From Shinella lacus (GTDB lineage: Bacteria > Pseudomonadota > Alphaproteobacteria > Rhizobiales > Rhizobiaceae), in the NCBI RefSeq assembly GCF_010994755.1, contig NZ_WHSB02000001.1:124001-188000 (forward strand): a DNA stretch of 64,000 nt, read 5' to 3'. Below, piece after piece: positions 878 through 21,339 of this stretch. The notes beneath the pieces are model-generated. The model was not told the DNA's origin. It saw only the letters and a program-made list of their open reading frames with translations, and did no database searches. Position 1 is the first letter of the stretch. Each line of letters starts with the position of its first letter. The translations under genes and the position numbers were made by a program.

Positions 878-889
878 GTCCTGTTCCTT

Positions 890-1837: not shown

Positions 1838-1849
1838 GACGAACGTTTC

Positions 1850-3349
<1,500 letters not shown>

Positions 3350-3368
3350 GTCTTCCTCCCCCGCATCG

Positions 3369-5473: not shown

Positions 5474-5477
5474 CGGC

Positions 5478-6311: not shown

Positions 6312-6368
6312 TGGAACCTCCGTTTTGTGCCCCGATCGAGGCGTGTCCAGATTTTCGATGAAACCGTT

Positions 6369-7013: not shown

Positions 7014-7198
7014 GTTCCCCTCCCATCGAATTTCCTACCGTGACCAACAGATAGAATGAAATTCGTTATTGTGCAACATCAAAAAAAATGATTTTTATTT
7101 TTTGCACTGGCGGTCGAGAGAAATCTGCGCGCGCCCTCACGCCGTCTTGCGAGGCGGCCTCCCCCGGAAATGAAAAATTGGCAACGGAAAGCGACAAC
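7014..7198. promoter_or_regulatory. Divergent promoter region with AT-rich tracts and inverted repeat
   Basis: This 185-base intergenic region between the eda operon and the HAD gene carries an A8 tract and T-rich runs (7081-7103) that are strikingly AT-rich for the window. They are bracketed by the inverted repeat GTGCAA (7071-7076) / TTGCAC (7102-7107). The region is a plausible control site for the minus-strand operon, but no regulator gene is adjacent, so its protein is unknown. Confidence 0.4.
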
Positions 7199-7834
7199 AT
7201 GATCAGAGCAGTCTTGTGGGACATGGACGGCACCCTCGTGGATAGCGAGGACATCGCGGTCGAGGCGCTGGCCTGCGCCATGCAGGAGGCCGGCCTGCTG
7301 CCACCCGCGGACCTCAAGCCGCGGGTCGTCGGCCGCTCGGCCGACGAGATCTACGCGATCATCGCCCGGGACTTCGGCTTGCAGGCCGATCCGATGGAAT
7401 GGGAGTGCCGCAAGCACCACCATTATTTTCGCGCAGCGGAAAGACTGAGAGGCTACGACGACGCCGTGGCGACGTGGCGCAGCCTCGCCGCGGCCGGCAT
7501 CCGCCAGGCTGTCGTCTCCAACAGCGACCGCGCCATCGTCGACGTGAACCTCCGGGCCGCCGGCCTCGTCCGCCCCGGGCTCGTCACCGTCGCCCGCAAC
7601 GATGTCCTTCTCGGCAAGCCCCACCCGGAAGGCTATTTCCGCGCCGCCTACCTGCTCGGCGTGGAACCGCACGAATGCCTGATCGTCGAGGACAGCGGCA
7701 GCGGCGCGGCCGCTGCCCTTGCTGCCGGCATCGAGACGGTCTTCGTGCCGCACAGCCACAGTGCACCACCGGAGGGCGTGCGCTGGCTCAGTTCCATGGC
7801 CGAACTCGAAGAGCGGGTGCTGGGCGCGCGGTAA
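7199..7834 (+). CDS. HAD-superfamily phosphatase (phosphoglycolate/beta-PGM-like)
   Basis: 211-residue HAD hydrolase. Motif I is DMDGTLVDS with nucleophile Asp8 and acid Asp10, motif II VVSNSD, motif III Lys in LGKPHPEGY, and motif IV EDSGSG. A helical cap follows motif I, as in phosphoglycolate phosphatase and beta-phosphoglucomutase. The ATG at 7199 places motif I at residue 8, as is normal; an upstream in-frame ATG at 7088 would add 37 residues unlike the family. It is divergent from the eda operon and probably dephosphorylates a sugar phosphate linked to that pathway or a by-product. Confidence 0.8.
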   Translation: MIRAVLWDMDGTLVDSEDIAVEALACAMQEAGLLPPADLKPRVVGRSADEIYAIIARDFGLQADPMEWECRKHHHYFRAAERLRGYDDAVATWRSLAAAGIRQAVVSNSDRAIVDVNLRAAGLVRPGLVTVARNDVLLGKPHPEGYFRAAYLLGVEPHECLIVEDSGSGAAAALAAGIETVFVPHSHSAPPEGVRWLSSMAELEERVLGAR

Positions 7835-7866: not shown

Positions 7867-7896
7867 TTGACGATCCTCTCCGAGATCAATAGATAT
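7867..7896 (+). promoter_or_regulatory. Putative sigma-70-type promoter of the GMC oxidoreductase gene
   Basis: TTGACG at 7867-7872 and the weak -10 TAGATA at 7890-7895 are separated by 17 bases. The ATATAT-C-ATATAT operator starts inside this -10, which would suit repression by blocking polymerase. The -10 is poor, so this is tentative. Confidence 0.4.
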
Positions 7897-7905
7897 ATCA
7901 TATAT
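7893..7905. promoter_or_regulatory. GntR-type operator, site 1
   Basis: A 13-bp palindrome ATATAT-C-ATATAT, 26 bases before the GMC oxidoreductase start. The identical element (or its complement) recurs at 11786 and 18468 in the two divergent promoter regions of the same cluster. Palindromes of this size are typical GntR-family operators, and the only GntR gene in the window is encoded in this operon. Binding is inferred. Confidence 0.65.
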
Positions 7906-7930
7906 TATCATGAAATCCCGGGAGGATGCG

Positions 7931-9535
7931 ATGGCGGATTATATTGTTGTGGGCGGCGGCTCGGCGGGCAGCGCGCTGGCCGGCCGGCTGGCGCTCGGTG
8001 ATGCGGGAAAGGTGCTGGTGATCGAGGCCGGCCCGCGCGACAGCAATCCGTTGATCCACATTCCCGCCGGCTTCGTGAAGCTGCTCGATTCGGACCTTCT
8101 CTATCACTACAAGACCGAAGCGCAGCCGGCGCTGAACGGCCGCGCGCCCGTGATGCCGCAGGGCGCGGTGCTTGGCGGCGGGGGCTCGGTCAATGCCGCC
8201 ATCTACATTCGCGGCCAGCGCCGCGACTATGACGACTGGGCACGCCTCGGCGCCGATGGCTGGGCCTATAGCGACGTGCTGCCCTATTTCCGCCGGGCGG
8301 AAGACAATGACAGGCTTTCGGACGCCTATCACGGCATCGGCGGCCCGCTCGGCGTGTCCGACCTGCGCCAGGTAACCGACCTGACGCGCGCCTTCGTGCG
8401 CGCCGCCCAGGAGGCCGGCATTCCCTACACGCCGGATTTCAACGGCACGCGCCAGCGCGGCGTCGGCTTCAACCAGACCACTACCCGCTACGGGAGACGG
8501 TGCAGTGCCGCCGTCGGCTACATGCGCCCGGCCATGAAAACCGGCAACCTCGAAATCCGCACCGGCTGCCTCGTCACCCGCATCCTCTTCGAGGGTGACC
8601 GCGCCCGCGGCGTCGAATATGTCCGCAACGGCAAGGTCGAGACGGCCCTGGCCGACAAGGAGGTCATCCTCTCCGGCGGCGCGGTGCAGACGCCGAAGCT
8701 GCTGATGCTGTCCGGCATCGGCCCCGAAGCGGAACTGAACCGGCACGGCATCGCTGTCAAACACCGGCTGGAAGGAGTCGGCCAGAACCTGCAGGATCAC
8801 CTCGAATTTCCCGCCATCCGTTTCTGCACCGGCCGCTACGGCTATTACGGTGAGGACAGTTTTTTGCGGTCCGTGAAAAACGGGCTGCAATACCTGCTCT
8901 TCAAGTCGGGGCCGGTCATGTCGAATGTCACGGAGGCCTGCGCCTTCATGAATGTCGATGACATGGAGGCCGAGCCGAACATCCAGATGCATTTCGTGCC
9001 GATCGTCTTCATGGACAGCGACCAGGAGCAGGTCAAACGCGCCGGCGCCACCGTGAACCCCTGCGTGCTCAGGCCGGAGAGCCGTGGCGAAATCCGGCTG
9101 AAATCCACCGACCCGGCCGCCCATCCGATCGTCGATCCGCGTTACCTGACGGCGCCGGAGGACGTGCGGCTTTCCGTGAAGGCGCTGAAGCTCGCCCGTA
9201 CCATTCTGGCGCAGCCCTCCTTCGCCGATTTCGTGGAAGACGGCGAGGCCTATCCCGGCAAGGCGGTGGACGACGATGCGGCGCTCAGTGCCTATATCCG
9301 CTCCAAGGGCAAGACGGTCTATCACCCGGTCGGCACCTGCCGGATGGGGCGCGACGCGATGTCGGTCGTCGATCCGGAGCTTCGCGTGCACGGCCTGCGC
9401 AATCTGCGCGTTGTGGACAACTCCGTCATGCCGACACTGATTTCGGGCAATACCAATGCAACCGCGATAATGATCGGAGAGAAAGCTTCGGATATCATCC
9501 GCGGCCTGGCGCCGCTTGCGCCATCGAACGCTTGA
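7931..9535 (+). CDS. GMC-family FAD-dependent alcohol oxidoreductase
   Basis: 534-residue glucose-methanol-choline oxidoreductase. The FAD-binding GGGSAGS lies at residues 7-13, with the second GMC signature around SGGAVQTPKLL and the catalytic His in YHPVGTCRMG near the C-terminus, followed by NTNATAIMIGEKA. Members oxidise primary or secondary alcohols, passing electrons to quinone or other acceptors. The ATG at 7931 is preferred over an in-frame ATG at 7910 because CGGGAGGATGCG gives an ideal Shine-Dalgarno and the FAD motif then sits as in relatives. First gene of cluster A, followed by the GntR regulator; it probably performs the entry oxidation of the imported polyol. Confidence 0.85.
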   Translation: MADYIVVGGGSAGSALAGRLALGDAGKVLVIEAGPRDSNPLIHIPAGFVKLLDSDLLYHYKTEAQPALNGRAPVMPQGAVLGGGGSVNAAIYIRGQRRDYDDWARLGADGWAYSDVLPYFRRAEDNDRLSDAYHGIGGPLGVSDLRQVTDLTRAFVRAAQEAGIPYTPDFNGTRQRGVGFNQTTTRYGRRCSAAVGYMRPAMKTGNLEIRTGCLVTRILFEGDRARGVEYVRNGKVETALADKEVILSGGAVQTPKLLMLSGIGPEAELNRHGIAVKHRLEGVGQNLQDHLEFPAIRFCTGRYGYYGEDSFLRSVKNGLQYLLFKSGPVMSNVTEACAFMNVDDMEAEPNIQMHFVPIVFMDSDQEQVKRAGATVNPCVLRPESRGEIRLKSTDPAAHPIVDPRYLTAPEDVRLSVKALKLARTILAQPSFADFVEDGEAYPGKAVDDDAALSAYIRSKGKTVYHPVGTCRMGRDAMSVVDPELRVHGLRNLRVVDNSVMPTLISGNTNATAIMIGEKASDIIRGLAPLAPSNA

Positions 9536-9574
9536 TGCGTAAGTGCCAGGATAGGAAACGCCACGGGTCCCCGC

Positions 9575-10258
9575 ATGAGCCAGCTGCCGAAAATCAACAA
9601 GGGAAACCTCTCCGAGCAGGTCTACGGCACCATTCGCGCATCCCTGATGGACGGCCGCTACGAGCCCGGCGAGCGGCTGACCATTGCCAGCCTCGCCGAC
9701 CAGCTCGGCGTCTCCATCACGCCGGTGCGCGAGGCGATCTTCCGCCTCGTCACGGAGCGCGCGCTGGAGATGCGGGCGGCGACCTCCATCCAGGTCCGGA
9801 GCCTCACGGCTTCCGAATTGCGCGAGATACAGCTCATCCGCCACCATCTGGAGGGCGAAGCGGCGGCCCAGGCGGCCATCAAGATCTCGGCAAAAGACCT
9901 GGCCGTGCTTGAGGCGCTACACGCCGATTTTGCCAAGACAGCTGCCACCGATCCGCTCGAAGCCTCGCATATCAACCGCGAGTTCCATTTCAAGCTGGCG
10001 GAAGCGGCGGAAATGCCGATGCTCTATTCGACCATCGAAGGCATGTGGGCACAGATGGGGCCGCTCATCCATCTCTATCACCTCCACACCCCTCCCCGCG
10101 TGCTCGTCAGCGGCAAACATGGCCATTACGACGTGCTGCGTGCACTGGCCGCCCGCGACCCGGAAGGCGCACGCCGCGCCATCCAGGCCGATATCGGCGT
10201 GGGTGTCGTGATGGTCGACTGGCTGGAAGCGAAAGGGGCGGCCGAAGCCGCCCCGTGA
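9575..10258 (+). CDS. GntR-family transcriptional regulator (FadR subfamily, FCD domain)
   Basis: 227 residues: an N-terminal winged helix-turn-helix (about 10-75, with ERLTIASLADQLGVSITPVREA) and an all-helical FCD ligand-binding domain (about 85-215). The FCD histidines are visible in NREFHFKL and GKHGHYDVL and probably bind a metal that contacts a carboxylate ligand. It lies 39 bases after the GMC gene, so it is co-transcribed and probably autoregulated through site 1. It is the best candidate to bind the three ATATAT-S-ATATAT operators, making it the regulator of cluster A; the effector would be a sugar acid or related organic acid. Confidence 0.85.
   Translation: MSQLPKINKGNLSEQVYGTIRASLMDGRYEPGERLTIASLADQLGVSITPVREAIFRLVTERALEMRAATSIQVRSLTASELREIQLIRHHLEGEAAAQAAIKISAKDLAVLEALHADFAKTAATDPLEASHINREFHFKLAEAAEMPMLYSTIEGMWAQMGPLIHLYHLHTPPRVLVSGKHGHYDVLRALAARDPEGARRAIQADIGVGVVMVDWLEAKGAAEAAP
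10235..10254 (-). terminator. UUCG-tetraloop terminator of the aldehyde dehydrogenase gene
   Basis: Read on the minus strand, an 8-bp GC stem GGGGCGGC / GCCGCCCC closes a TTCG loop and is followed by TTTC. It lies 8 bases past the aldehyde dehydrogenase stop, inside the last codons of the convergent GntR gene, so the two genes share the sequence. Confidence 0.6.
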
Positions 10259-10261
10259 GCG

Positions 10262-11758
10262 TCAAAGCTCGATCCACGTCGTCTTGAGTTCCGTGTATTT
10301 GTCGAGCGCGTGCAATGACTTGTCGCGTCCGTTGCCGGATTGCTTGAAGCCGCCGAAGGGAACGGTCGCGTCGCCGTGATCGTAGCAATTCACCCAGACC
10401 GTGCCGGCCCTGAGCTTGCGGGCGATCTTGTGGGCGCGTGACAGGTCGCGCGTCCAGACGGCCGCCGCAAGGCCGTAGGACGTGTCATTGGCGACACGCA
10501 CCGCCTCCTCGTCGTCCTCGACCGTGATCGTCGACAGCACGGGACCGAAGATTTCCTCCTGCGCGATGGTCATGTCATTGCGCACATCGGCAAAAATCGT
10601 CGGGTTGATGTAATAGCCGTCGGGCGTATCGCCCGGCCGGTCGCCGCCGAGCACCAGCCGCGCGCCCTCCGCCTTGCCCTTGGCGATATAGCTCTCGACA
10701 CGGTCGCGATGGCCGCTTTCCACCAGCGCGCCGAGCTTCGTCGCGGGATCGAGCGGATCGCCCGGCCGGATCGACTTCGCCGTCTCGACGACGATGTCGA
10801 GGAACTGCTCCTGAATGCGCTTGGAGAGGATAAGCCGCGACGGTGCCACGCAGACCTCGCCCTGGTTGAAGCAGATCGCGGTGGCCGCCCGTTCCGCCGC
10901 GACGCGCAATTCGGGGACGTCGTCGAGAATGATGTTCGGCGACTTGCCGCCGCATTCGAGGAAAACGCGTTTCATGTTCGACTGGCCGGCATATTGCAGG
11001 AAGAGTTTGCCGACTTCCCCCGACCCGGTGAAAGCCAGGCAATCGACATCCATGTGCAGGCCGAGCGCCTTGCCGGCTGTCGGGCCGAAACCCGGTACGA
11101 CGTTGAAGACGCCATCGGGAATGCCGGCTTCCGCCGCAAGCTCGGCCAGCCGGATCGCGGTCAGTGGCGACTGTTCAGCCGGCTTCAGCACGACGGAATT
11201 GCCCATGGCGAGCGCCGGTGCGAACTTCCACGTCGCCATCAGCATCGGGAAGTTCCACGGCACGACCGCGCCGACCACGCCGATCGGCTCGCGCGTGATC
11301 ATGGCGAGCTGGCCGGGACCGGTGGGTGCGATCTCGTCATAGAGCTTGTCGGGGCACTCGGCATACCATTGCAGCGTATCGAGCACGACGTTCACGTCGA
11401 TGTTGCGGCTTTCGGACACCGGCTTGCCCATGTCGAGCGTTTCCAGCACGGCAAGCTCGTCCATGTGCTTTTCAAACAGCGCGGCAAAACGCTGGAGCAC
11501 CTTCTTGCGCTCCTTCGGCGACCGGTCGCGCCAGTCTCCCGCCTCGAACGTCCGACGCGCCGCTTTCACCGCGCGGTCGACATCTTCCGCGTCGCCCGCC
11601 GCAACGCGCGCGATTGCCTTGCCGTCGCGCGGCGAAATGTCGTCGAACGTCTCGCCGGAGGCCGCGTCGACGAAGCGGCCGTCGATGAAGGCCTGTCCCT
11701 TGATGGCGATCCGGCTGCGGATCGCGGTCACATCCGCCTGTGTCAGTGCAAGATTCAC
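10262..11758 (-). CDS. NAD(P)-dependent aldehyde dehydrogenase (PuuC/BetB-like)
   Basis: 498-residue aldehyde dehydrogenase. PWNFP and LKPAE (cofactor), FTGSGEVGK, the general base Glu268 in FLECGGKSPN and nucleophile Cys303 in FNQGEVCVAPSR are all present. The GTG start at 11758 (VNLALTQADV) is chosen because GGAGGAGAT stands just before it; an upstream in-frame ATG at 11794 falls inside the operator. It is convergent with the GntR gene and divergent from the transketolase pair, sharing the operator at 11786. It is expected to oxidise the aldehyde made by the GMC enzyme or released by transketolase to an acid. The exact aldehyde is unknown. Confidence 0.83.
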   Translation of the reverse strand: MNLALTQADVTAIRSRIAIKGQAFIDGRFVDAASGETFDDISPRDGKAIARVAAGDAEDVDRAVKAARRTFEAGDWRDRSPKERKKVLQRFAALFEKHMDELAVLETLDMGKPVSESRNIDVNVVLDTLQWYAECPDKLYDEIAPTGPGQLAMITREPIGVVGAVVPWNFPMLMATWKFAPALAMGNSVVLKPAEQSPLTAIRLAELAAEAGIPDGVFNVVPGFGPTAGKALGLHMDVDCLAFTGSGEVGKLFLQYAGQSNMKRVFLECGGKSPNIILDDVPELRVAAERAATAICFNQGEVCVAPSRLILSKRIQEQFLDIVVETAKSIRPGDPLDPATKLGALVESGHRDRVESYIAKGKAEGARLVLGGDRPGDTPDGYYINPTIFADVRNDMTIAQEEIFGPVLSTITVEDDEEAVRVANDTSYGLAAAVWTRDLSRAHKIARKLRAGTVWVNCYDHGDATVPFGGFKQSGNGRDKSLHALDKYTELKTTWIEL

Positions 11759-11785
11759 GTCATCTCCTCCATTTTTATCAGTGAC

Positions 11786-11798
11786 ATATATCATATAT
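11786..11798. promoter_or_regulatory. GntR-type operator, site 2 (divergent promoter)
   Basis: ATATAT-C-ATATAT, identical to site 1, in the 102-base gap between the aldehyde dehydrogenase (minus) and the transketolase pair (plus). A GTGACA at 11781 with TATCTC 17 bases on could be the plus-strand promoter, which would put the operator in its spacer; on the minus strand the site could overlap the -10. Flanking CATATAT repeats extend the element slightly. Confidence 0.65.
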
Positions 11799-11860
11799 CA
11801 TGTTATCTCGCCCCATCGCAAGGAGTTGTTGCCGGGATCGGCACAGGAAGGGAGGAGCGT

Positions 11861-12724
11861 GTGACGCAGCCAGTGAGAAACGATTACCGACCCACGGAGG
11901 CCGAGGTCGCGCGGCTCAGGGACCGCGCCCAGTTCGTGCGCCTGGAGACCATCCGGCTCATCGAGATCGCCAAGGTGGGCCACTACACCTCGGTGTTTTC
12001 CGCCGCCGAAATCTTCGCCGCGCTCTACTATGACGTGATGTCGCTATCGGCGGACCCGAAATGGCCTGACCGCGACCGCTTCCTGATGGGCAAGGGCCAC
12101 GCCGCCGTCGGCCTGTTCCCGATCCTCGCCGAACTCGGCTACATCCCGACCGAGGTGCTGAACGGCTATACCCGCCTCGGCAATCCGCTCGGCGACCATC
12201 CCGACATGCGCAAGGTTCCGGGCGTCGATTTCTCGTCCGGCTCGATCGGCCATGCGCTGTCCAACGGGCTCGGCATGGCGCTGGGCGGGCGCATGCAGGG
12301 CCGCGACTTCACCACCTTCGTCATGCTTGGCGACGGCGAAATGCAGGAAGGCCAGGTCTGGGAAGCCGCCATCGGCGCCGCCCACCACAAGCTCAACCGT
12401 CTCGTCGCGATCATCGACCGCAACGGCTACCAGCTCGACGGCGCGGTGGACGACGTGATGGGCATCGAGCCGATCGACGAGAAATGGCGTGCCTTCGGCT
12501 GGGAGGTGCATGTCGTCGATGGCCACGACATCGCCGAACTCACCGCGCTGCTGCGCCGGGTCAAGGCCGATGCGTCCCGCGAAAAACCCTGCTGCATCAT
12601 CGCGCGCACGCTGAAGGGCAAGGGCGTCTCCTACATGGAAACCGAGCCCGGCTGGCATCTCGGCTATCTCGACCCCGTCGATGCGGAAGCCGCGCGCCAA
12701 GAAATTCTGTCCAAGGTGATCTGA
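11861..12724 (+). CDS. Split transketolase, N-terminal (TPP-binding) subunit
   Basis: 287 residues corresponding to the pyrophosphate-binding half of transketolase. It carries the GDG-to-N thiamine-diphosphate motif (LGDGEMQEGQVWEAA through IDRNGYQ) and KGHAAVGLFPILAELG. The GTG at 11861 is preceded by AAGGGAGGAG; frames open further upstream are shadows of the divergent gene. It forms one functional enzyme with the next gene (1 base between them), transferring two-carbon ketol units. Split transketolases of this kind occur in specialised sugar pathways such as apulose-4-phosphate or sulfofructose breakdown; no matching kinase or isomerase is present here, so neither is assigned. Confidence 0.88.
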   Translation: MTQPVRNDYRPTEAEVARLRDRAQFVRLETIRLIEIAKVGHYTSVFSAAEIFAALYYDVMSLSADPKWPDRDRFLMGKGHAAVGLFPILAELGYIPTEVLNGYTRLGNPLGDHPDMRKVPGVDFSSGSIGHALSNGLGMALGGRMQGRDFTTFVMLGDGEMQEGQVWEAAIGAAHHKLNRLVAIIDRNGYQLDGAVDDVMGIEPIDEKWRAFGWEVHVVDGHDIAELTALLRRVKADASREKPCCIIARTLKGKGVSYMETEPGWHLGYLDPVDAEAARQEILSKVI

Positions 12725-12725
12725 G

Positions 12726-13715
12726 ATGACCCAAGCCAATCTGCGACCGACCTCGCCGAATTCCTGGCACTACCGGGAACTGAACATGAAGAATCCCGGC
12801 CTCGACCATCTGTCGAACGGCCTGATCACGCTGACCGAGGCCGGTCACCCGATCGTCGCCGGCTCTGCCGACCTGCAATATTCCAACGGGCTCAACCGCT
12901 TCGCCGCGCGTTACCCGGACCGCTATGTCAGCTTCGGCATTTCCGAGCAGAACATGGTGTCGGCCGCCGCCGGCCTCGCCACCACGGGCATGATGCCCTA
13001 CGTCGCGACCTTCGCCTCGTTCCTCGGCCTTTTGACCTGCGAACAGATCCGCATGGACGTCGCCTACTGCGCCCTGCCGGTGCGCCTGATCGGCCACCAC
13101 ACCGGCATCGCCATGGGTTTCTACGGCACCTCGCACCATGCGACGGAAGACATTGGCACCATGCGTTCGATCGCCGACCTGACGATCGTCTCTCCGGCAG
13201 ACGGCCCGCAGCTCGAGGCGGCGATCCGCGCCTCGGTCGAGCATGACCGCCCGATCTATTTCCGCACCGGCCGCGGGCGCGAGCCGGAGCTCTATAACAG
13301 CAAGGCCGATTTCGTCTTCGGCAAGGCGGTCGAGCATGCGCAGGGCGAAGAGGTGACGATCATCGCCTGCGGCCTTCCCGTCCATCCATCGGTGCAGGTC
13401 GCGAAGAAACTCGCCGCCGAAGGCCGCAGCGTCGGCGTCATCGACATGGCGACGGTCAAGCCGATCGACCGCGACGCGATCCTCGCCGCCGCCGCGCGCT
13501 CCAAGGTCATCCTGACCGTCGAGGAGCACAACATCCTCGGCGGGCTCGGCTCTGCCGTTGCCGAAGTGCTGGCGGAGGAAGGCGGCCCCGCAAGGCTCGT
13601 TCGCCACGGCATCCGCGACGAATACGCGCTGATCGCCCCACCGACGCATCTCTACGCCCATTACCGGCTCGACCAGGCCGGCATCGAATCCGTCGTCCGC
13701 GACATCATCGGCTGA
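12726..13715 (+). CDS. Split transketolase, C-terminal (pyrimidine-binding) subunit
   Basis: 329 residues covering the pyrimidine-binding and C-terminal transketolase domains. FGISEQNMVSAAAGLA carries the cofactor-activating Glu, IGHHTGIAMGFYG the substrate-site histidines, and VEEHNILGGLG begins the C-terminal domain. It starts 1 base after the stop of the first subunit, as expected for an obligate partner. It is followed by a hairpin at 13743 and then the ABC importer genes in the same direction, suggesting one transcript from the operator at 11786. Confidence 0.88.
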   Translation: MTQANLRPTSPNSWHYRELNMKNPGLDHLSNGLITLTEAGHPIVAGSADLQYSNGLNRFAARYPDRYVSFGISEQNMVSAAAGLATTGMMPYVATFASFLGLLTCEQIRMDVAYCALPVRLIGHHTGIAMGFYGTSHHATEDIGTMRSIADLTIVSPADGPQLEAAIRASVEHDRPIYFRTGRGREPELYNSKADFVFGKAVEHAQGEEVTIIACGLPVHPSVQVAKKLAAEGRSVGVIDMATVKPIDRDAILAAAARSKVILTVEEHNILGGLGSAVAEVLAEEGGPARLVRHGIRDEYALIAPPTHLYAHYRLDQAGIESVVRDIIG

Positions 13716-13742
13716 CGGCCCGCGCCGGGAGGGCGCGTTATC

Positions 13743-13764
13743 CCGCTCCGGGTTTCTGGAGCGG
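13743..13764 (+). other. Intercistronic hairpin between transketolase and binding-protein genes
   Basis: A perfect 7-bp stem CCGCTCC / GGAGCGG with an 8-base loop. No T-tract follows, so it is more likely an mRNA-processing or stability element that raises expression of the downstream periplasmic binding protein than a full terminator. Confidence 0.45.
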
Positions 13765-13795
13765 ACGATCCAACTTCAACTGAGGGAGAGAGACC

Positions 13796-15037
13796 ATGAC
13801 GTTCTTGAAATCGGCATCGCTGATGCTGTGCACGGCCGCACTGGCCATCATGACCAGCGCGGCTAATGCCGCCGAAAAACACGAAATCTACAAGCTGCTG
13901 CCGAATTCCGCCCTTTCCGGCGTGATTGATCCGGAAATGGCCGACCGTTCGGACGTCGCCAAGGCGCTGCCGACGACGCCGCGCGACGCGAGCAAGAAGC
14001 TGGTGATCGGCTGGACCGAAATCACGCTCGGCAATCCCTGGTTCGTCAGTGTCATCGACACGGCGAAGGCCAAGGCCGCCGAATACGGCTACGAACTCGA
14101 CGTGCAGGTCGCCGATGGCGACCCGGCGAAGACCTCGGCGCAGATCGACGCCTTCATCGCCAAGAAGGTCGACGTCATCGTGCTCGACCCGACCGACCTC
14201 GCCGCCGCCGCAGCCGACGCGCAACGCGCCGTCGATGCCGGCATTCCGGTCATCGCGCTCGGCACCGTGCCGGACGACAGCCCGATCGTCACGACCGTGC
14301 TCTTCAACCCCTATGGCAACGGTTTCGAGGCGGGGCGTTTCGTTGCGCAGCACTACGGCGCCGACAAGCCGATAACGGCGGCGGCGATCCTCGGCACCGT
14401 CGGCAACTCGACGTCGGAAAGCCGCGTAAACGGCATGATCACCGGCATCATCTACGAACGTTCCCAGCAGCTCGGCCTCAACCTTTCCAAGGAAGACGCC
14501 ATGCTCGCCGGCTTCAACAAGTTCCAGGAACTGAAGACCGGCGGCGCCTTCGACTATCCGGAGGTCAAATTCAGCGTCGTCTCGATGGGCGTCGGCTTCT
14601 GGACGGAAGAAGGCGGGCTCGATGCGGCGGAGGACATCCTGACGGCGCATTCCTCCAAGCTCGACATCATCCTCGCCGAAAACGACTTCATGGGCATGGG
14701 TGCATTGCGCGCGCTGGAAAACCAGGATCTGAAGGGCAAGATCCAGGTGGCGAATGCCGCGGACGGCTTCCGCACCGCGCTCGATCTCGTCAAGTCCGGC
14801 GACATGCTGGTGACCGGCCTTTGCTCCGGCTCGCACACCGGCGAAGGCGTCATCACCCTGATAAACCAGATCTTCGACAAGGGTTTCGATGCCAACAACC
14901 TGCCGCTCGGCTCCTACTACCCCTCGCAGATCGTGACCAAGGAGAACGCCGACCAGTTCATCGACCCGGACACGGCAAACCCGTTCTTCCGCTACACGGT
15001 CCCGGCCTTCAAGACGATCGGCGAACTCAAGAGCTGA
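13796..15037 (+). CDS. ABC importer periplasmic sugar-binding protein (type I, ribose-like)
   Basis: 413 residues with a signal peptide (hydrophobic 8-23, cleavage near SAANA-AE). The mature part is a Periplasmic_binding_4-type fold: GWTEITLGNPWFVSV, KVDVIVLDPTD, AGIPVIALG and ENDFMGMGAL. It captures the cluster A substrate in the periplasm. It is longer than ribose-binding proteins because of a roughly 40-residue segment before the first strand. The ATG follows GAGGGAGAG. The order binding protein, ATPase, permease is that of ribose/xylose-class importers. Confidence 0.88.
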   Translation: MTFLKSASLMLCTAALAIMTSAANAAEKHEIYKLLPNSALSGVIDPEMADRSDVAKALPTTPRDASKKLVIGWTEITLGNPWFVSVIDTAKAKAAEYGYELDVQVADGDPAKTSAQIDAFIAKKVDVIVLDPTDLAAAAADAQRAVDAGIPVIALGTVPDDSPIVTTVLFNPYGNGFEAGRFVAQHYGADKPITAAAILGTVGNSTSESRVNGMITGIIYERSQQLGLNLSKEDAMLAGFNKFQELKTGGAFDYPEVKFSVVSMGVGFWTEEGGLDAAEDILTAHSSKLDIILAENDFMGMGALRALENQDLKGKIQVANAADGFRTALDLVKSGDMLVTGLCSGSHTGEGVITLINQIFDKGFDANNLPLGSYYPSQIVTKENADQFIDPDTANPFFRYTVPAFKTIGELKS

Positions 15038-15099
15038 CCGGCACCAGGGATGATGCGGCGGGCCTTGCGGGGTCCGCCGCGATGAAAGGGAGGCAGGAC

Positions 15100-16593
15100 A
15101 TGGATCGCCTGGACATGCGGCAGATCTGGAAGGAATTCGGCGGCATCGCCGCGCTCAGCGGCGCCGGGTTTTCGGCACGCGCGGGCGAAGTGCATGCCCT
15201 GATGGGTGAAAACGGCGCCGGCAAATCGACCCTGATGAAGATCCTCGCCGGCGCCTATAGCCATGACGGCGGCGAGATCCGCATCGGCGGCGAACCCGTC
15301 AGCATAACGAACCCGCAGGACGCGATCCGCAACGGCGTCTCGATCATCTACCAGGAATTTTCGCTCGCAAGCGACCTGACGGTTGCCGAAAACATCCTGA
15401 TCGAGACCCTGGGGCACGGCATGTTCGTCAACCGGCGGGCCATGCATGCCCGCGCCGCGGAACTGCTCGCCCGCATGGGTTTCGACGACATCGATCCCGG
15501 CGAGATCGCCGGCGGGCTTACCATCGCGCGCCAGCAGGTGGTGGAAATCTGCAAGGCGCTGTCGCGCGACTGCTCGATCCTCGTGCTCGACGAACCAACC
15601 GCCGTGCTCACCACGCACGAGACAGAAAAACTCTTCAATCTGGTGCGGCGGCTGCGCGACCAGGGCGTCTGCATCGTCTACATCTCGCACCGGCTCGACG
15701 AGATCTTCAGTCTCTGCGACCGGGTGACCGTGCTCAAGGACGGCGCGACGGTCGGGACCTGGGAAACCGGCGCGCTCGACCACACGTCGCTGGTCAACCT
15801 GATGATCGGCCGCGAGCTGAAGGACTTTTTTCCCGAACGGCAGATCACCCCCGGTCCAGTGGCGCTAGAGGTGGATGCGCTTGCAGCCGGCGGACTGGTC
15901 TCCGACATCAGCTTCACGGTTCGCCGCGGCGAAGTGCTGGGCATCGGCGGCCTTGTCGGGGCGGGGCGGACCGAGGTGCTGCGCGCGATTTTTGGCGCGG
16001 ACCCGGTCTCGGCCGGCGAAATCCGCATCGACGGGCGACCTCGCACCATCCGCTCGCCCGGCGACGCCGTACGGGCGGGCATCGGCCTCGTGCCGGAGGA
16101 TCGCAAACAGCAGGGCTGCCTGCTCGACCTGCCGATCCTCAACAATGCCATGCTGACGCCGGTCAATCCGCATCTCGGCTTTTGGGGCCTCATCCGCGAG
16201 GCTCGCGAGCGCGGCGCCACCGAGGCTCTGCGCAGCCGGCTGAACCTGAAGGCCGCGAGCATAGACGCCGAGGCCGGCACGCTGTCCGGCGGCAACCAGC
16301 AGAAGGTCGCGATCATGAAGTGGCTCGTCTCGGGCTGCGAGATCCTGCTGCTGGACGAACCGACGCGCGGCGTCGATGTCGGCGCGAAGGTCGAGATCTA
16401 CCGCGTCATCAACGAACTGGCGGCCAATGGTGCCGCCATCGTCATGGTCTCCTCGGAAATGCTCGAGCTGATCGGCATGTGCGATCGGGTGATCGTCATG
16501 CGCGCCGGCCGCCTTGCCGGCGAACTTTCCGGCGAAGAGCTCACCGAGGAAGGCATCATCGAACTGGCAATGGGGCGCAAGAATGTCCACTAA
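15100..16593 (+). CDS. Sugar ABC transporter ATPase (tandem nucleotide-binding domains)
   Basis: 497 residues with two ABC modules, as in RbsA/MglA. Domain 1 has Walker A GENGAGKST and Walker B VLDEPTAVL; domain 2 has the degenerate GLVGAGRTE loop, signature LSGGNQQKV and LLDEPTRGVDVG. It powers uptake through the adjacent permease. The ATG at 15100 lies 8 bases after AAAGGGAGG; an ATG at 15082 in the same frame lacks a clear ribosome site. It overlaps the permease start by 11 bases. Confidence 0.88.
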   Translation: MDRLDMRQIWKEFGGIAALSGAGFSARAGEVHALMGENGAGKSTLMKILAGAYSHDGGEIRIGGEPVSITNPQDAIRNGVSIIYQEFSLASDLTVAENILIETLGHGMFVNRRAMHARAAELLARMGFDDIDPGEIAGGLTIARQQVVEICKALSRDCSILVLDEPTAVLTTHETEKLFNLVRRLRDQGVCIVYISHRLDEIFSLCDRVTVLKDGATVGTWETGALDHTSLVNLMIGRELKDFFPERQITPGPVALEVDALAAGGLVSDISFTVRRGEVLGIGGLVGAGRTEVLRAIFGADPVSAGEIRIDGRPRTIRSPGDAVRAGIGLVPEDRKQQGCLLDLPILNNAMLTPVNPHLGFWGLIREARERGATEALRSRLNLKAASIDAEAGTLSGGNQQKVAIMKWLVSGCEILLLDEPTRGVDVGAKVEIYRVINELAANGAAIVMVSSEMLELIGMCDRVIVMRAGRLAGELSGEELTEEGIIELAMGRKNVH

Positions 16594-17581
16594 TCCGAAG
16601 GCTCCTGGCCTCGTTTCCCTCCTCGTCACCTACAATATCTACATCATGCTGGCCGCACTGGTGGTGATCTCCACGCTGCTGTCGGAACACTTCCTGACGC
16701 TGCAGAACCTCTTCAACCTGCTGCGGCAACTGGCGCCCCTCGCCCTCGTCTCGATCGGCATGCTGCTCGTCATCCTCACCGGCGGCATCGACCTTTCTGT
16801 GGGTTCCATCGCGGCGATCGGCGGCATGGGTGTGGCGATGGCAATGCCCGCGCTGCCCTTCGACGGCGCGACGGCCTTGCTGATATGTGTCTTCGGCGGC
16901 GTTCTTTTCGGCGCGCTGCTCGGCGCCATCAACGGCGCGCTCGTGGCCGGCTTCGGAATGGCGTCCTTCGTCGCGACGCTCGCCATGATGACCATGGCGC
17001 GCGGCCTCGCCTACATGCTGTCAAACGGCCAGCCGGTGCGCTTTCCGCGCGACCTGCCGACCGCGCAGATCCTGACCGGCTTCGGCAGCAAGGGCCTGCC
17101 CGGCATCGGCCTGCCCTGGCCGGTCCTCGCCGTGCTGGTCGTCATAGCGCTCTTCGTCTTCCTGCTCCGCCGCACGAACTGGGGGCGGCTGACCGTCGCC
17201 ACAGGCAGCAACGAGAACGCCGTCCGCCTCGCGGGCCTGCCCGTCTGGCGCTACAAGTTCCTCGCCTTCACGCTGAGCGGTGCGCTTTCGGCACTCGCCG
17301 GCATCTTCGTCACCGCCCGCACCGCGGTCGGCACGCCGGTCACCGGCATCGGCCTGGAACTCGATGCGATCGCGGCCTGCGTCATCGGCGGCGCCCTGCT
17401 CTCCGGCGGCCGGGGCACCGTGACGAACACGATGATCGGCGTGCTGATCCTCGGCCTGATCGGCAACATCATGAACCTGATGAGCGTGCCGGCCTATCCG
17501 CAGCAGATCATCAAGGGCGTCATCATCATCCTCGCCGTGCTGATGCAGGGCATCGGTGCGCGGGCAAAACGCCGCGTGTGA
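16583..17581 (+). CDS. Sugar ABC transporter permease (RbsC family)
   Basis: 332-residue inner-membrane protein of the BPD_transp_2 family with about 8-10 hydrophobic segments. The signature LTGGIDLSVGS near residue 70 is diagnostic of ribose/xylose-type permeases, and the late block CVIGGALLSGGRG contacts the ATPase. It acts as a homodimer. It is the last gene before a strong terminator at 17601, so the transketolase-importer transcript ends here. Confidence 0.88.
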   Translation: MSTNPKAPGLVSLLVTYNIYIMLAALVVISTLLSEHFLTLQNLFNLLRQLAPLALVSIGMLLVILTGGIDLSVGSIAAIGGMGVAMAMPALPFDGATALLICVFGGVLFGALLGAINGALVAGFGMASFVATLAMMTMARGLAYMLSNGQPVRFPRDLPTAQILTGFGSKGLPGIGLPWPVLAVLVVIALFVFLLRRTNWGRLTVATGSNENAVRLAGLPVWRYKFLAFTLSGALSALAGIFVTARTAVGTPVTGIGLELDAIAACVIGGALLSGGRGTVTNTMIGVLILGLIGNIMNLMSVPAYPQQIIKGVIIILAVLMQGIGARAKRRV

Positions 17582-17600
17582 ACCTCCCGCACGCGAAACT

Positions 17601-17635
17601 GGCCCGCATCACAAAGCGCGATGCGGGCCTTCTTT
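17601..17635 (+). terminator. Rho-independent terminator of the transketolase-importer operon
   Basis: A perfect 10-bp stem GGCCCGCATC / GATGCGGGCC (17601-17610, 17620-17629) with a 9-base loop, followed by TTCTTT. It sits 20 bases after the permease stop and immediately before the end of the convergent gene at 17635. Confidence 0.85.
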
Positions 17636-18417
17636 CATTTCAGGAAATCGACGAGCAGGCGCACCTGCTGCTCGATCATGTGGATGCCCTTGTGAACGAC
17701 ACAGCCCCGCGCCTCTGCCGCGGCCAGAAGCGGCGTCATATCCGGCTGCATCACCACCTCGCCGACGACCGTGCCCGCGCCGAGCCGGTCCACATCGACG
17801 GGGAGCGCATCACCCGCATGCATGCCGAGCGCGGTGCCGTTGATGACGATGTCGAAACCGCGGGGATTCGGCGGGCCGGTCTCGACGCGGGCGTTTTCAA
17901 AGAGGCCACGCAGCTGGCCCGCCAGGGTTTCGGCCTTTTCCGGCGACCGGTTGGCGATCGTCAGCCCGGCCACGCCGGCGCCGAGCAGCGCATGCGCCAC
18001 ACCGCTCGCCGCACCGCCGGCGCCGACGAGCAACACGCGCTTGCCGGCGGGATCGTGCCCACGGTGGAGAAGGCCGGCAACAAAACCCTCGCCGTCGAAC
18101 ATGCCGCCGGTGAGGCTGCCGTCCTTCTCCCGGCGAACGATGTTGCAGGCGCCGACAAGGGCTGCCGCACCGACGAGACGGTCGCACAGCGCGGCAATCG
18201 CTCCCTTGTGAGGAATGGTGATCACCATGCCGGCGAGGTTTTCGATCGCCCGCAGGCTGTCGACGGTGGCGTGCAGCCGTTCCGGCAGAACGTCGAGCGG
18301 CACCATGACGATGTCCTCCCCCTGCCGTTCACATTCGGCATTGAACAGCGGCGGCGTGCGCACATGGCGGCAGGGATGGGCGAGCAGGGGGACGAAGCGG
18401 GTATGCCCGGTAATCAT
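17635..18417 (-). CDS. Shikimate dehydrogenase-fold oxidoreductase (atypical, cluster A)
   Basis: 260 residues in the AroE fold. The catalytic Lys is in ITIPHKGAI, the catalytic Asp in GGMFDGEGF, and the NADP loop is GAGGAASGVAHALL followed by NRSPEKAE. The N-terminal Ser motif for the shikimate carboxylate is absent, replaced by AHPCRHVRTPPLFN. It is transcribed divergently from the GldA-like gene and shares the operator at 18468. Its placement in a polyol/sugar regulon and the altered substrate motif argue against biosynthetic AroE; a dehydrogenase for a hydroxy acid or cyclic polyol intermediate is the best inference. Confidence 0.8.
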   Translation of the reverse strand: MITGHTRFVPLLAHPCRHVRTPPLFNAECERQGEDIVMVPLDVLPERLHATVDSLRAIENLAGMVITIPHKGAIAALCDRLVGAAALVGACNIVRREKDGSLTGGMFDGEGFVAGLLHRGHDPAGKRVLLVGAGGAASGVAHALLGAGVAGLTIANRSPEKAETLAGQLRGLFENARVETGPPNPRGFDIVINGTALGMHAGDALPVDVDRLGAGTVVGEVVMQPDMTPLLAAAEARGCVVHKGIHMIEQQVRLLVDFLK

Positions 18418-18467
18418 GGGTTTATCCTCGAAAATGACAAGAAGGCGCTTGCGCGCTGGACTACATA

Positions 18468-18480
18468 ATATATGATATAT
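18468..18480. promoter_or_regulatory. GntR-type operator, site 3 (divergent promoter)
   Basis: ATATAT-G-ATATAT, the exact reverse complement of sites 1 and 2, in the 86-base gap between the shikimate-dehydrogenase-like gene (minus) and the GldA-like gene (plus). Similarity to site 1 extends past the core (ATTATG on the complementary strand), supporting a single binding protein. Confidence 0.65.
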
Positions 18481-18503
18481 GAAATATCCATAGAGACGCC
18501 TGC

Positions 18504-19640
18504 ATGAATTCCCCTTTGACCATTTTCGACGCCGATCTCAAGGTTTTCGGAGCGCCCGGACGCTATGTCCAGGGACGCGGCATCCTGGCCCGCATCGGCG
18601 ACTTCGCAGCCCAGATCGGCCAGAGCGCGGTGCTTGTGGCGGATGTGCACATCCTGCCCCTCGTCGAACAGACGATCCGCCGCTCCTGCGAGCAGCGCGA
18701 TGTTTCCCTGACGGTGCTGCCCTTCGAGGGGCGGCTTGGCCCCGAAACCGGCCACGAACTCGCAACCAGGCTCGGCGATGCGACGCCGTCGATTGTGTTG
18801 GCAGCCGGCGGCGGGCGGGCGATCGATGCGGGCAAGGCGCTTGCCGATACGCGCGGGCTGCGGCTGATCACCATTCCCACGGTGGCCTCGAACGATGCGC
18901 CGACGAGCAAGAACTATGTGCTCTATGACGAGGACGACGTGCTGCTGGAAGTCCGGCACCTGCCTCGCAACCCGGATTTCGTGGTTGTCGACACGGTGTT
19001 GCTGGCCGGCGCGCCGAAAGCGATGTTCGCGGCCGGGCTGGGCGACGCGCTCTCCAAGAAGGCCGAAGCGCTCGCCTGCGCCGCCGGCAGCGGCCTCACC
19101 ATGTTCCGCGCCCGGCCGACGCGGCTTGCCGGCACGATCGCGACGGCCTGCTACGATACTCTGATGACGCATGGCCGGGCGGCCTACGACGCTGCCGGCA
19201 CAGGCGCGCCGACTGAAGCCTTCGAGGCCGCGGTCGAGGCGATGATCCTGATGGCCGGGCTCGGCTTCGAAAGCGGCGGCCTTTCCGTGCCGCATGCCTT
19301 GACGCGCGGCCTGCCGCTGCTGCCGGGCATCAAGGCCAGGCCGCACGGCTTGCAGGTCGCCTATGGTCTCGTCGTGCACCACCGGCTGATGGGCGAAGCC
19401 ATGCCCGACGCCCTGCTGGAACTTTACCATCATGCAGGGCTACCGCTCTGCCTTGCGGATCTGACCGCCGCGCAGGTCGATCGGTCGCAGCTCACGGCGG
19501 TAGCGGAAGCGTCGATCGCCGTGCCGCACATGCTCAATTTCCCGAAAACGCTGACCGTCGCCGATCTGGTGGACGCCATGCTCGCCATTGAGGCGGAGGC
19601 CGCCATGCGCCCCGCCATCGCCAATCGAAGAGGAAGATGA
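18504..19640 (+). CDS. Glycerol dehydrogenase-like metal-dependent alcohol dehydrogenase
   Basis: 378 residues of the iron/zinc-containing alcohol dehydrogenase superfamily, GldA branch. NAD-binding GGG is at 102-104, PTVASNDAPTS at 125-135 matches GldA, and the metal ligands are Asp181, His264 and His281 (GLGDALSKK, VPHALTR, RPHGLQVA), close to Bacillus GldA numbering. The family oxidises glycerol or short vicinal diols at C2, or runs in reverse on dihydroxyacetone or glycolaldehyde-type products. First gene of a three-gene operon controlled from the operator at 18468. In cluster A it could process a short ketose or aldehyde released by transketolase. Confidence 0.82.
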   Translation: MNSPLTIFDADLKVFGAPGRYVQGRGILARIGDFAAQIGQSAVLVADVHILPLVEQTIRRSCEQRDVSLTVLPFEGRLGPETGHELATRLGDATPSIVLAAGGGRAIDAGKALADTRGLRLITIPTVASNDAPTSKNYVLYDEDDVLLEVRHLPRNPDFVVVDTVLLAGAPKAMFAAGLGDALSKKAEALACAAGSGLTMFRARPTRLAGTIATACYDTLMTHGRAAYDAAGTGAPTEAFEAAVEAMILMAGLGFESGGLSVPHALTRGLPLLPGIKARPHGLQVAYGLVVHHRLMGEAMPDALLELYHHAGLPLCLADLTAAQVDRSQLTAVAEASIAVPHMLNFPKTLTVADLVDAMLAIEAEAAMRPAIANRRGR

Positions 19641-19641
19641 A

Positions 19642-20352
19642 ATGCCCCAGAATGACCGGGAAACGCCCCTCGCCGTCGTCACCGGAGGCGGCACCGGCAT
19701 CGGCCGGGCCGTCGCGGAACTCCTGACCGCAAGCGGCTACGCGGTGATCGCCCTGGGTCTCGATCGCGACGACGACCTGCCCGCCGACATCGCCTTCCAC
19801 ACTGTCGATATTACCGACACGGCGGCAAGCATCGCCACGCTGCCGGACGGGCGGCCGGTTGCGGCGCTGGTCAATTGCGCCGGCATGCTGCGCCACCAGC
19901 AGGAATGGGAGACCGACGCCTTCGAACAGGTCATGCGCGTCAACCTGACCGCCGGCTTCGCGCTCGCCAATGCGCTCGTCGAAAGGCTCGAAGCCGGCGG
20001 TGGCGCCATCGTCAATGTCGCGTCCATGTGGGCGATCTTCGGTTCGCCGGGCGCGCCCGCCTATACGGCGAGCAAGGCCGCGGTTGCCGCCGTCACGCGC
20101 TCGCAGGCCGTGGCGTGGGCGGGCCGCGGCATCCGCGTCAATTCCATTGCACCGGGCTGGGTCGAGACGAAGATCTCCGAAAAAGCCCGCACCGACGCCG
20201 CGCGGGCCGAGCGCATCAATGCCCGCATCCCCATGGGGCGCTGGGCGAAACCCGCCGAAGTCGCCTCCGTCGTGCGCTTCCTGCTCTCGCAAGATGCCGC
20301 CTACATCACCGGCGCGATGATCCCCGTCGACGGTGGCTATTCGGTCTGCTGA
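19642..20352 (+). CDS. Short-chain dehydrogenase/reductase (cluster A)
   Basis: 236-residue SDR with TGGGTGIG at the N-terminus, NCAG in place of NNAG, catalytic Ser (VASMWA region) and Tyr-x-x-x-Lys in YTASKAA, and the common C-terminal block ITGAMIPVDGGYSVC. The ATG at 19642 follows AGAGGAAG; the frame is open 18 codons further up inside the previous gene, but that segment is a shadow. It starts directly after the GldA-like stop, so the genes are coupled. Probably an NAD(P)-dependent polyol or ketose dehydrogenase. Confidence 0.82.
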   Translation: MPQNDRETPLAVVTGGGTGIGRAVAELLTASGYAVIALGLDRDDDLPADIAFHTVDITDTAASIATLPDGRPVAALVNCAGMLRHQQEWETDAFEQVMRVNLTAGFALANALVERLEAGGGAIVNVASMWAIFGSPGAPAYTASKAAVAAVTRSQAVAWAGRGIRVNSIAPGWVETKISEKARTDAARAERINARIPMGRWAKPAEVASVVRFLLSQDAAYITGAMIPVDGGYSVC

Positions 20353-20364
20353 GGAGGAATGCAT

Positions 20365-21339
20365 ATGAAAGCCTGGGTTCACGACACGACCGGTGATCCG
20401 GACATCCTGCAATTGCGCGACCGGCCGAAGCCGGAGCCGGGTCCGGGCGAGCTGCTGATCCGCAACCGCGCCGTCGGCCTCAACCCCGTCGACTGGAAGT
20501 TCATCCTCTGGGGCCACGACGCATGGGAATGGCCGCATGTTCCCGGCGTCGACGGGGCCGGCGAGGTCGAGGCCGTGGGCGATGGCGTGCACCATATCGC
20601 CACGGGAACGCGGGTCGCTTACCACAACGACCTCCTGAAGCCGGGCTCCTTCGCGGAATACACCGTCATCCCGGCGCGCGCCGCCATCCCGCTACCGGCC
20701 GCCCTGCCCTTTGCCGCCGCCGCGTCGATCCCCTGCCCGGGCCTCACCGCCCGCCAGGCCATCGATAAGGTCGCGCTCTGGCCCGGCGCCCATGTGCTGG
20801 TGACCGGCGCCTCCGGTGCGGTGGGCGGTGCGCTGCTTCAGCTTGCCCGCGCGCGCGGCTGGGTCGTGCACGCCGTCGGCTCCGCATCCCAATCGGACCG
20901 CCTGCTTGGCCTCGGCGCTGCAACCGTCACCGACTACCGCCGGGACGGCTGGAAGGAGGACTGGGCAAAGCGGGCGCGGCATCAGCCGCTGAACGCCGTG
21001 TTCGACATGGTGAATGGCGCCCACGCGGCGAGCCTGGCTCCCCTGCTGACGGCGAACGGCCATCTGGTCTGCATCCAGGACCGGCAGGAAACCGCGCCGC
21101 TGCCCGCCTTCTCGACGACCATCTCGCTACACGAAGTCGGCCTCAACGCCATGCACGCCCACGCCTGCGATCGTCAGTGGGGACGGCTTGTCGCCGCCGG
21201 CGCCGAGATCGCGCAGCACATCTCGGAGGGGCTCTTCGATCCGCAACTAATCGAGGTTGCCGGTTTCGATGAGCTGCCCCAAGCACTGGCACGCCTGAAG
21301 GCCGGCCCCAACCCCGGCAACCGCGTCGTCGTCCTATAG
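20365..21339 (+). CDS. Zinc-independent quinone-reductase-like MDR oxidoreductase
   Basis: 324-residue medium-chain reductase of the quinone oxidoreductase (Qor) branch. GLNPVDWK near the N-terminus, HVPGVDGAGEVEAVG, the NADPH motif VTGASGAVGGALLQLA and no zinc-site cysteines are seen. Members reduce quinones or enones, or act on activated alcohols. An ATG at 20359 abuts the Shine-Dalgarno GAGGAGG, so the ATG at 20365 is preferred on spacing. Last gene of the GldA-SDR operon and convergent with the RND pump. Its role in the pathway is unknown. Confidence 0.78.
   Translation: MKAWVHDTTGDPDILQLRDRPKPEPGPGELLIRNRAVGLNPVDWKFILWGHDAWEWPHVPGVDGAGEVEAVGDGVHHIATGTRVAYHNDLLKPGSFAEYTVIPARAAIPLPAALPFAAAASIPCPGLTARQAIDKVALWPGAHVLVTGASGAVGGALLQLARARGWVVHAVGSASQSDRLLGLGAATVTDYRRDGWKEDWAKRARHQPLNAVFDMVNGAHAASLAPLLTANGHLVCIQDRQETAPLPAFSTTISLHEVGLNAMHAHACDRQWGRLVAAGAEIAQHISEGLFDPQLIEVAGFDELPQALARLKAGPNPGNRVVVL

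Follow-up and report, generated by a model that had tools for sequence, protein, structure and literature searches.

Transketolases (TKs) made of two separately encoded chains are known from several bacterial systems. In D-apiose catabolism, the two-chain enzyme AptAB acts on apulose 4-phosphate. The apiose pathway has been reported to require the kinase gene aplK together with the TK genes aptA and aptB (PMC13001218). The sulfo-TK SqwGH uses an unphosphorylated ketose, with glyceraldehyde 3-phosphate as the acceptor, and forms xylulose 5-phosphate (PMC11659671). The split TK of Carboxydothermus hydrogenoformans has been reported to take bulkier aldehydes (PMC7661550). Here, a split TK from Shinella lacus is described together with the 12-gene block in which it lies, at 7910-21339 of a 64,000-nucleotide stretch (the window; bases 124001-188000 of contig C1 in a genome of 7.04 Mb). 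The block is proposed to be a GntR-controlled regulon for the uptake and catabolism of a polyol-like compound without a sugar kinase of its own, a reading to which, with the full scheme given below, we assign a probability of a little under one half (about 0.46).

The block and its shared operator

The families of all 12 genes, importer ATPase and permease included, were confirmed by Pfam, and every family named in a preliminary description of this DNA was recovered within the interval given there. The genes and the three operator copies are as follows (aa, amino acids).

7893-7908, plus strand: operator copy 1, upstream of the GMC gene; perfect match
7910-9535, plus strand: GMC-family alcohol oxidoreductase, 541 aa; PF00732/PF05199 (GMC_oxred_N/C)
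9575-10258, plus strand: GntR-family (FCD) regulator; Pfam GntR and FCD; position conserved in relatives
10262-11761, minus strand: aldehyde dehydrogenase (ALDH), start uncertain, up to 11794; PF00171 (Aldedh); PuuC-like, below the cut-off
11786-11801, plus strand: operator copy 2, between the divergent ALDH and TK genes; perfect match
11861-12724, plus strand: TK N-terminal chain, binding thiamine diphosphate (ThDP), 287 aa, GTG start; PF00456 (Transketolase_N), 137 bits
12726-13715, plus strand: TK C-terminal chain, 329 aa; PF02779 and PF02780 (Transket_pyr and Transketolase_C)
13796-15037, plus strand: CUT2-type sugar-binding protein, 413 aa; Peripla_BP_4
15100-16593, plus strand: sugar ABC transporter ATPase, start picked by eye; PF00005, two stretches on 15112-16593
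16583-17581, plus strand: sugar ABC transporter permease; PF02653 (BPD_transp_2) on 16589-17581
17635-18417, minus strand: AroE-fold dehydrogenase, 260 aa; PF08501/PF01488 (Shikimate_dh_N/Shikimate_DH)
18465-18487, minus strand: operator copy 3, overlapping sites between the divergent AroE-like and GldA-like genes; perfect match at 18465
18504-19640, plus strand: GldA-like dehydrogenase of the Fe-ADH family, 378 aa; PF00465
19642-20352, plus strand: short-chain dehydrogenase (SDR); PF13561 (adh_short_C2)
20359-21339, plus strand: Qor-like zinc-type dehydrogenase; PF08240/PF13602 (ADH_N/ADH_zinc_N_2)

The start of the N chain was set at the GTG at 11861, much later than the start of the mechanically called open reading frame.

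Three promoters of the block share a near-palindromic operator, ATATATCATATATNAT. At up to two mismatches the window holds five matches, three of them perfect (7893, 11786 and 18465), against a chance expectation of 0.01. Across the 7.04 Mb searched, matches at up to one mismatch are confined to the same three promoters. Three further sites appear genome-wide at two mismatches, where a reversed control pattern gives two, and none of the three adjoins genes of the block's set (inspected by eye, 3 kb each). The GntR protein is presumed to act on the three operators by binding them. Because the operator at up to one mismatch sits only at these promoters, the predicted regulon that it defines contains no kinase.

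The same block and operators are found again in 12 syntenic loci of Rhizobiaceae and Rhodobacterales (L009-L018, L020 and L046). These loci come from Rhizobium, Agrobacterium, Shinella, Gemmobacter, Pseudogemmobacter, Paracoccus, a Rhizobiales isolate and two metagenome-assembled genomes; some carry insertions, and L020 ends before the Qor gene. A 13-base operator core was found at the ALDH/TK promoter in 12/12 loci, at the AroE/GldA promoter likewise in 12/12, and in 10/12 before GMC or a GabD-GMC pair. The two exceptions are L017, whose contig begins 160 bases before GMC, and L046, which has no core there at up to two mismatches. The preliminary description had spoken of one regulon, and the three-promoter operator, its uniqueness in the genome at up to one mismatch and its conservation in relatives all support this. 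The search it had proposed for a conserved neighbourhood of the TK pair with the GMC and AroE-like genes was likewise positive in the syntenic loci.

In 7/16 GMC-type loci (L012, L015, L016, L026, L046, L080 and L083), a gene for a GabD-like ALDH is present, either under the operator or elsewhere in the locus. A 94% identical copy in the S. lacus genome was considered as a further member of the regulon and left out, because no operator core at up to three mismatches occurs in the 19 kb read around it and because a gyrB-like gene (by eye) is close by.

The transketolase active site and described relatives

The adjacent TK genes encode a ThDP-binding N chain and a pyrimidine/C chain that together keep the catalytic residues, as expected of a split TK. 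Positions are numbered after E. coli TktA, with which the two full-length TKs of the S. lacus genome agree at R91, R358 and D469. In an alignment to canonical TKs, the equivalents of H26, H66, H100, H261, E411, H473, S385, H461 and R520 are retained. The pocket is changed by R91 to T in the N chain and by R358 to L, E468 to F and D469 to Y in the C chain, so that the three residues taken as typical of a pentose-phosphate TK (R91, R358 and D469) are replaced by T, L and Y. Relatives of the C chain were collected from 59 loci in named genomes and from 15 plasmid records, read out of 33 found. The 67 loci counted below (the window, L009-L059 and L076-L090) are related to one another and were cut at about 10 kb. 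Of these, 65 have both chains (L057 and L059 lack a full pair), and T91 and Y469 were found in 65/65 and L358 in 62/65, with A in L056, F in L081 and a gap in L079. The equivalents of H26, H66, H100, H261, E411 and H473 are kept in 65/65. The outgroup (L060-L066) retains R91, R358 and D469.

Residue D469 is presumed to contact the hydroxyl next to the new carbonyl, and R358 is taken to be a phosphate contact. In E. coli TK, a salt bridge links D469 to R91 (PMC5073344), and changes at the two positions therefore go together. Substitution D469T opens pockets for benzaldehydes (PMC5073344), and D469Y gives a relative activity of 8.0 versus 1.0 with propanal, a non-hydroxylated aldehyde; the enantioselectivity of this variant is reversed, at 68% R (PMC3657141). 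The preference of wild-type TK is for phosphorylated substrates, 2R-hydroxyaldehydes and D-threo donors, and the same source mentions R358 only near the carboxylate of a docked aldehyde (PMC10787763). The data on D469 mutants and the wild-type preferences together suggest that the pocket of this clade is altered at the point where the hydroxyl beside the new carbonyl is read.

The D-apiose system resembles the block in that a two-chain TK is encoded next to SDRs and a CUT2 sugar importer, and the D469 position is lost in AptAB too (Leu). Apiose clusters differ by their FGGY kinase, their regulator of the sugar-binding type and their two specific SDRs. Compared with AptA and AptB of E. coli SE15, the window TK is 35-36% identical, and its pocket has F434/H461/Y469 versus A434/N461/L469. 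The FGGY protein near the block is a glycerol kinase (GlpK by TIGR01311) on the other strand, without the operator. This comparison (identity, pocket and no FGGY kinase under the operator) rules out the apiose pathway for the block. The S. lacus genome holds an apiose-type cluster at about 438-448 kb of C1. It includes a second split TK (L003, within L091, C1 434001-452000), accompanied by genes for a CUT2 importer, an FGGY kinase, a regulator and two SDRs. Identities to the E. coli SE15 cluster are 64 and 56% for the SDRs, 47 and 43% for the TK chains, 42% for the regulator and 37% for the kinase, and this TK has A434, S461 and L469, sharing A434 and L469 with AptAB. AplK is 40% identical to the window GlpK versus 37% to the L091 kinase, and kinase identity alone therefore cannot separate apiose kinases from GlpK here. 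The window TK and the kinase-linked TK of L091 fall in different clades of a tree that warns of long branches among its outgroup rows. The preliminary description would have been overturned by a TK pair inside a characterised kinase-linked clade; the tree, along with the identity and pocket comparison to AptAB, places the pair outside.

The sulfo-TK pathway, compared by its description, is like the proposed scheme in that the TK acts on an unphosphorylated ketose. It differs in using the isomerases SqvD and SqwI, and no isomerase family (the SF and SE isomerases having been looked for) occurs among the 12 regulon proteins. The earlier statement that known split TKs come with a dedicated kinase or isomerase is correct as to the isomerases of the sulfofructose route and imprecise in that its sugar is unphosphorylated (PMC11659671). 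Kinase-free TK cleavage as such therefore has a precedent. The C. hydrogenoformans TK (6yaj/6yak), also with N and C chains on separate genes, is the best PDB match of the window C chain (E 4e-59). It is described as the only TK of its organism, whereas the S. lacus genome also has two full-length TKs.

By score, the AroE-fold protein is not AroE (best 150.6 bits vs a cut-off of 252; TIGR00507 142.8 vs 200.2). Its Lys71 and Asp108, invariant in 14 aligned sequences, presumably correspond to the catalytic Lys and Asp of AroE. At the positions of the serine pair, which in AroE we take to bind the shikimate carboxylate, the aligned sequences have mostly Val/Leu and always Thr (by eye), and the pair is thus absent. 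The AroE fold is shared with 5-ketofructose reductase and other dehydrogenases (7cok, 4k28), but these are distant in sequence, 4k28 being the better match. The GldA-like protein scores 306.4 bits on the glycerol dehydrogenase model NF006941, below its cut-off of 336, and 77.3 bits on Pfam Fe-ADH, above the cut-off of 31.3, which makes it a member of that superfamily. The GMC protein has the general GMC domains and reaches 516.4 bits on TIGR01810 (BetA), under the cut-off of 732.1. Its best solved relative, 8b7s (372 bits), is a chloramphenicol-inactivating oxidoreductase, which says nothing on resistance here. For the binding protein (13796-15037), the nearest solved structure is 4ry9, whose ligand is presumably D-talitol.

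Exchange of partner genes in the wider family

The closest named relatives of the C chain are from Rhizobium giardinii H152 and a Rhizobiales isolate (96% each). Within the family the TK is an accessory trait, with matches at E <=1e-120 in 7/121 genomes, S. lacus counted; there is no such match in the only other member of the genus listed.

Among the 67 loci, a GldA gene occurs in 31 and an aminotransferase gene in 24, and no locus has both: the aminotransferase was found in 0/31 GldA loci and in 24/36 of the others. Aminotransferases were called at 30% identity over half the query, a permissive threshold that L033 and L057 barely pass. AroE accompanies GldA in 29/31 loci and occurs in 1/36 others. 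Mapped on a maximum-likelihood tree of 72 TK pairs, the presence of an aminotransferase requires six changes, and well-supported branches force at least five of them. The partner kits have therefore been swapped repeatedly rather than inherited once. The GldA kit and the aminotransferase kit could make the same 2-keto group.

The full set of block families, rearranged, occurs in Pacificoceanicola (L026) and Paraburkholderia terrae (L083). A smaller core is formed by the TK pair with AroE, GldA, SDR and GntR. It is joined in 10 loci by enolase-superfamily and VOC proteins, beside TRAP importers in Vreelandella and Agrobacterium (L049, L039 and L076) and beside a CUT1-type sugar importer in Bosea (L090). 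Elsewhere, the smaller core stands beside other importers without the enolase-superfamily and VOC proteins. The TK-aminotransferase set is found in Mesorhizobium, Phaeobacter, Shinella, Pararhizobium, Variovorax and others, with an amidase by sequence match in 5/24 loci.

Several further arrangements were observed. In L077, L078, L086 and L087, TKs of the same clade lie with class III aminotransferases and an amidase, possibly for the catabolism of N-acylated amino alcohols. The annotation of L078, L086 and L087 includes ABC importers, with a component in L086 labelled polyamine-binding; L077 (Sinorhizobium meliloti Rm41 pSymA) is unannotated and was matched by sequence. On Agrobacterium fabrum pAt2 (L076, 5467-8695), an aminomethyltransferase-family gene, purU and folD are directly upstream of the TK pair; this unit follows a branched-chain-type ABC importer and a dioxygenase and resembles a folate-dependent demethylation unit. 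On a Paracoccus albus plasmid (L089), AroE, FabG, an ABC importer of the branched-chain type and acetolactate synthase adjoin the TK core. A similar series (GMC, AroE, SDR, branched-chain ABC importer and an acetolactate-synthase-like gene, by eye) occurs without the TK in L092 (6029-15682). In L093, L094, L097 and L098, an AroE-AroE pair recurs with genes for a large oxidoreductase-like protein, a TIM-barrel-like protein and an ABC importer (recognised by eye), with this TK not nearby. L022 (13819-15622) contains a second, more distant split TK pair, 37 and 32% identical to the window chains.

The proposed pathway and its alternatives

In the proposed scheme, the ABC importer would bring in the polyol-like compound, and the GldA-like dehydrogenase would convert it to an unphosphorylated 1-hydroxy-2-ketone with a C3 hydroxyl. 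The AroE-like protein and the SDR may carry out other or stereochemical steps, and the GMC protein may act on a primary alcohol. The split TK would then cleave between C2 and C3 and transfer the two-carbon unit to glyceraldehyde 3-phosphate to give xylulose 5-phosphate. Phosphate would thus enter through the acceptor, which is phosphorylated. What is left would be an aldehyde or ketone without the usual alpha-hydroxyl, and an aldehyde would be oxidised by the ALDH. Where aminotransferases are present, these would make the ketone in place of the dehydrogenases. The preliminary description had assigned GldA to the clean-up of aldehydes; a role as ketone maker is more likely, because sister loci carry aminotransferases in its place. 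Candidate substrates that fit the pocket as read here include branched or methylated tetritols, deoxypolyols and alkyl- or aryl-glycerols. The pathway is a variant of TK-based ketose cleavage whose enzyme forms a separate active-site class. The pathway had been called undescribed, and open-licence full text, a body that leaves out most subscription journals and was searched with queries not all aimed at this point, yielded no description of it.

Several observations weigh against this scheme. The phosphate-side equivalents of S385, H461 and R520 remain, so a phosphorylated donor is possible, and R358L could equally weaken the binding of the proposed acceptor, glyceraldehyde 3-phosphate. No assay of an enzyme from this TK clade was found. 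The Fisher p of 1.6e-9 for the exclusion of aminotransferases from GldA loci is overstated, given the permissive threshold and loci that are related, near-copies or clipped, and 12/67 loci carry neither kit. Some relatives have aromatic, one-carbon or monooxygenase-like neighbours (partly by eye) that the scheme leaves unexplained, and the roles given to GMC, SDR and Qor are guesses. The GlpK gene group next to the block also belongs on this side, adjoining the block in 7/16 GMC-type loci, in two arrangements and two genera.

This group, at 305-7834 of the window, is a carbohydrate operon separate from the block. It comprises a cupin glucose-6-phosphate isomerase, a 315 aa protein, GlpK, two alcohol dehydrogenases (one resembling galactitol-1-phosphate dehydrogenase), an SDR, a 2-keto-3-deoxy-6-phosphogluconate aldolase and a HAD phosphatase. 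The kinase, at 1850-3349 on the opposite strand, is a true GlpK (TIGR01311, 693.7 bits vs a cut-off of 590.35). The 315 aa AroE-like protein has no Pfam match at 1e-5, and its Shinella counterpart is annotated as shikimate dehydrogenase. No ATATATCATATATNAT operator was found on the group in the window and genome-wide scans. In the window, L009, L010, L011 and L013, the group is found upstream of GMC (GlpK cut at locus edge). In Shinella zoogloeoides (L112) it lies downstream of Qor, with glpK, the AroE-like gene and the isomerase in the same order, and in L016 its HAD and aldolase genes are downstream of the block. It was not seen in the other 9/16 GMC-type loci within the roughly 2-5 kb of flank covered. 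A shared catabolic island or a genuine functional link may lie behind the two arrangements, which count against a plain claim of no kinase anywhere. The earlier claim that a kinase is absent therefore stands for genes under the operator and needs qualifying for the neighbourhood, where a true GlpK group adjoins the block and recurs in relatives.

Among the alternatives, a simple polyol such as erythritol or threitol would be oxidised to erythrulose, which the TK would cleave to glycolaldehyde for handling by ALDH or GldA, a new route for an old substrate. This is unlikely, although the importer is of the CUT2 type, the binding protein resembles sugar- and polyol-binding proteins, and the GldA-like protein scores 259.6 bits on a glycolaldehyde reductase model (NF053832), far below the cut-off of 550. 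Tyr at the D469 position better suits an aldehyde product without an alpha-hydroxyl than glycolaldehyde, and GMC, AroE and Qor would be superfluous. Somewhat less likely again is that a kinase outside the regulon, chiefly the neighbouring GlpK, phosphorylates either the substrate or a product of the dihydroxyacetone/glycerol type. In the product version, which is included in this estimate, the TK would cleave an unphosphorylated apulose-like ketose and GldA would then make the substrate of GlpK. The recurrence of the GlpK group beside the block and the fact that the namesake family of GldA makes or uses dihydroxyacetone speak for such a role. The missing operator and the nine GMC-type loci whose flanks show no GlpK group speak against it, as do the low identity to AptAB, the different pocket signature and the separate apiose-type cluster with its own kinase.

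The least likely of these alternatives has the TK working in the building direction, joining an aldehyde (e.g., from GMC) to a two-carbon donor (hydroxypyruvate or xylulose 5-phosphate), with the dehydrogenases processing the resulting ketose. In its favour are the reversibility of TK, a possible supply of hydroxypyruvate from aminotransferase-linked loci and, in E. coli TK, the preference for non-hydroxylated acceptors that Tyr at the D469 position brings. However, the importer, the ALDH and the GntR/FCD control look catabolic, and the window block has no recognisable gene for making hydroxypyruvate.

Kinase-free catabolism of a polyol-like compound remains the preferred reading for S. lacus, and a broader, more doubtful version of it may be drawn for the whole clade. 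The split TKs with T91, L358 and Y469, which span Alpha-, Beta- and Gammaproteobacteria and Actinomycetota, might form an undescribed class acting as a general two-carbon stripper fed by interchangeable ketone-making front ends. Such enzymes would remove C1-C2 from unphosphorylated 1,3-dihydroxy-2-ketones with a non-hydroxylated or branched residue at C3. The GldA/AroE/SDR kit would supply these ketones from 1,2,3-triols, and the aminotransferase kit, sometimes with an amidase, from 2-amino-1,3-diols. Without any kinase, the two-carbon unit would reach central metabolism in the form of xylulose 5-phosphate.

If this is true, carbon skeletons would have a kinase-free entry into the pentose phosphate pathway. 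It would also account for a recurring gene set of soil and marine bacteria whose annotation goes no further than transketolase, shikimate dehydrogenase and glycerol dehydrogenase. These would be natural TKs already bearing D469Y, the change that engineers introduced for a non-hydroxylated aldehyde, and the question of the substrate would be testable through one binding protein, one TK pair and one operator.

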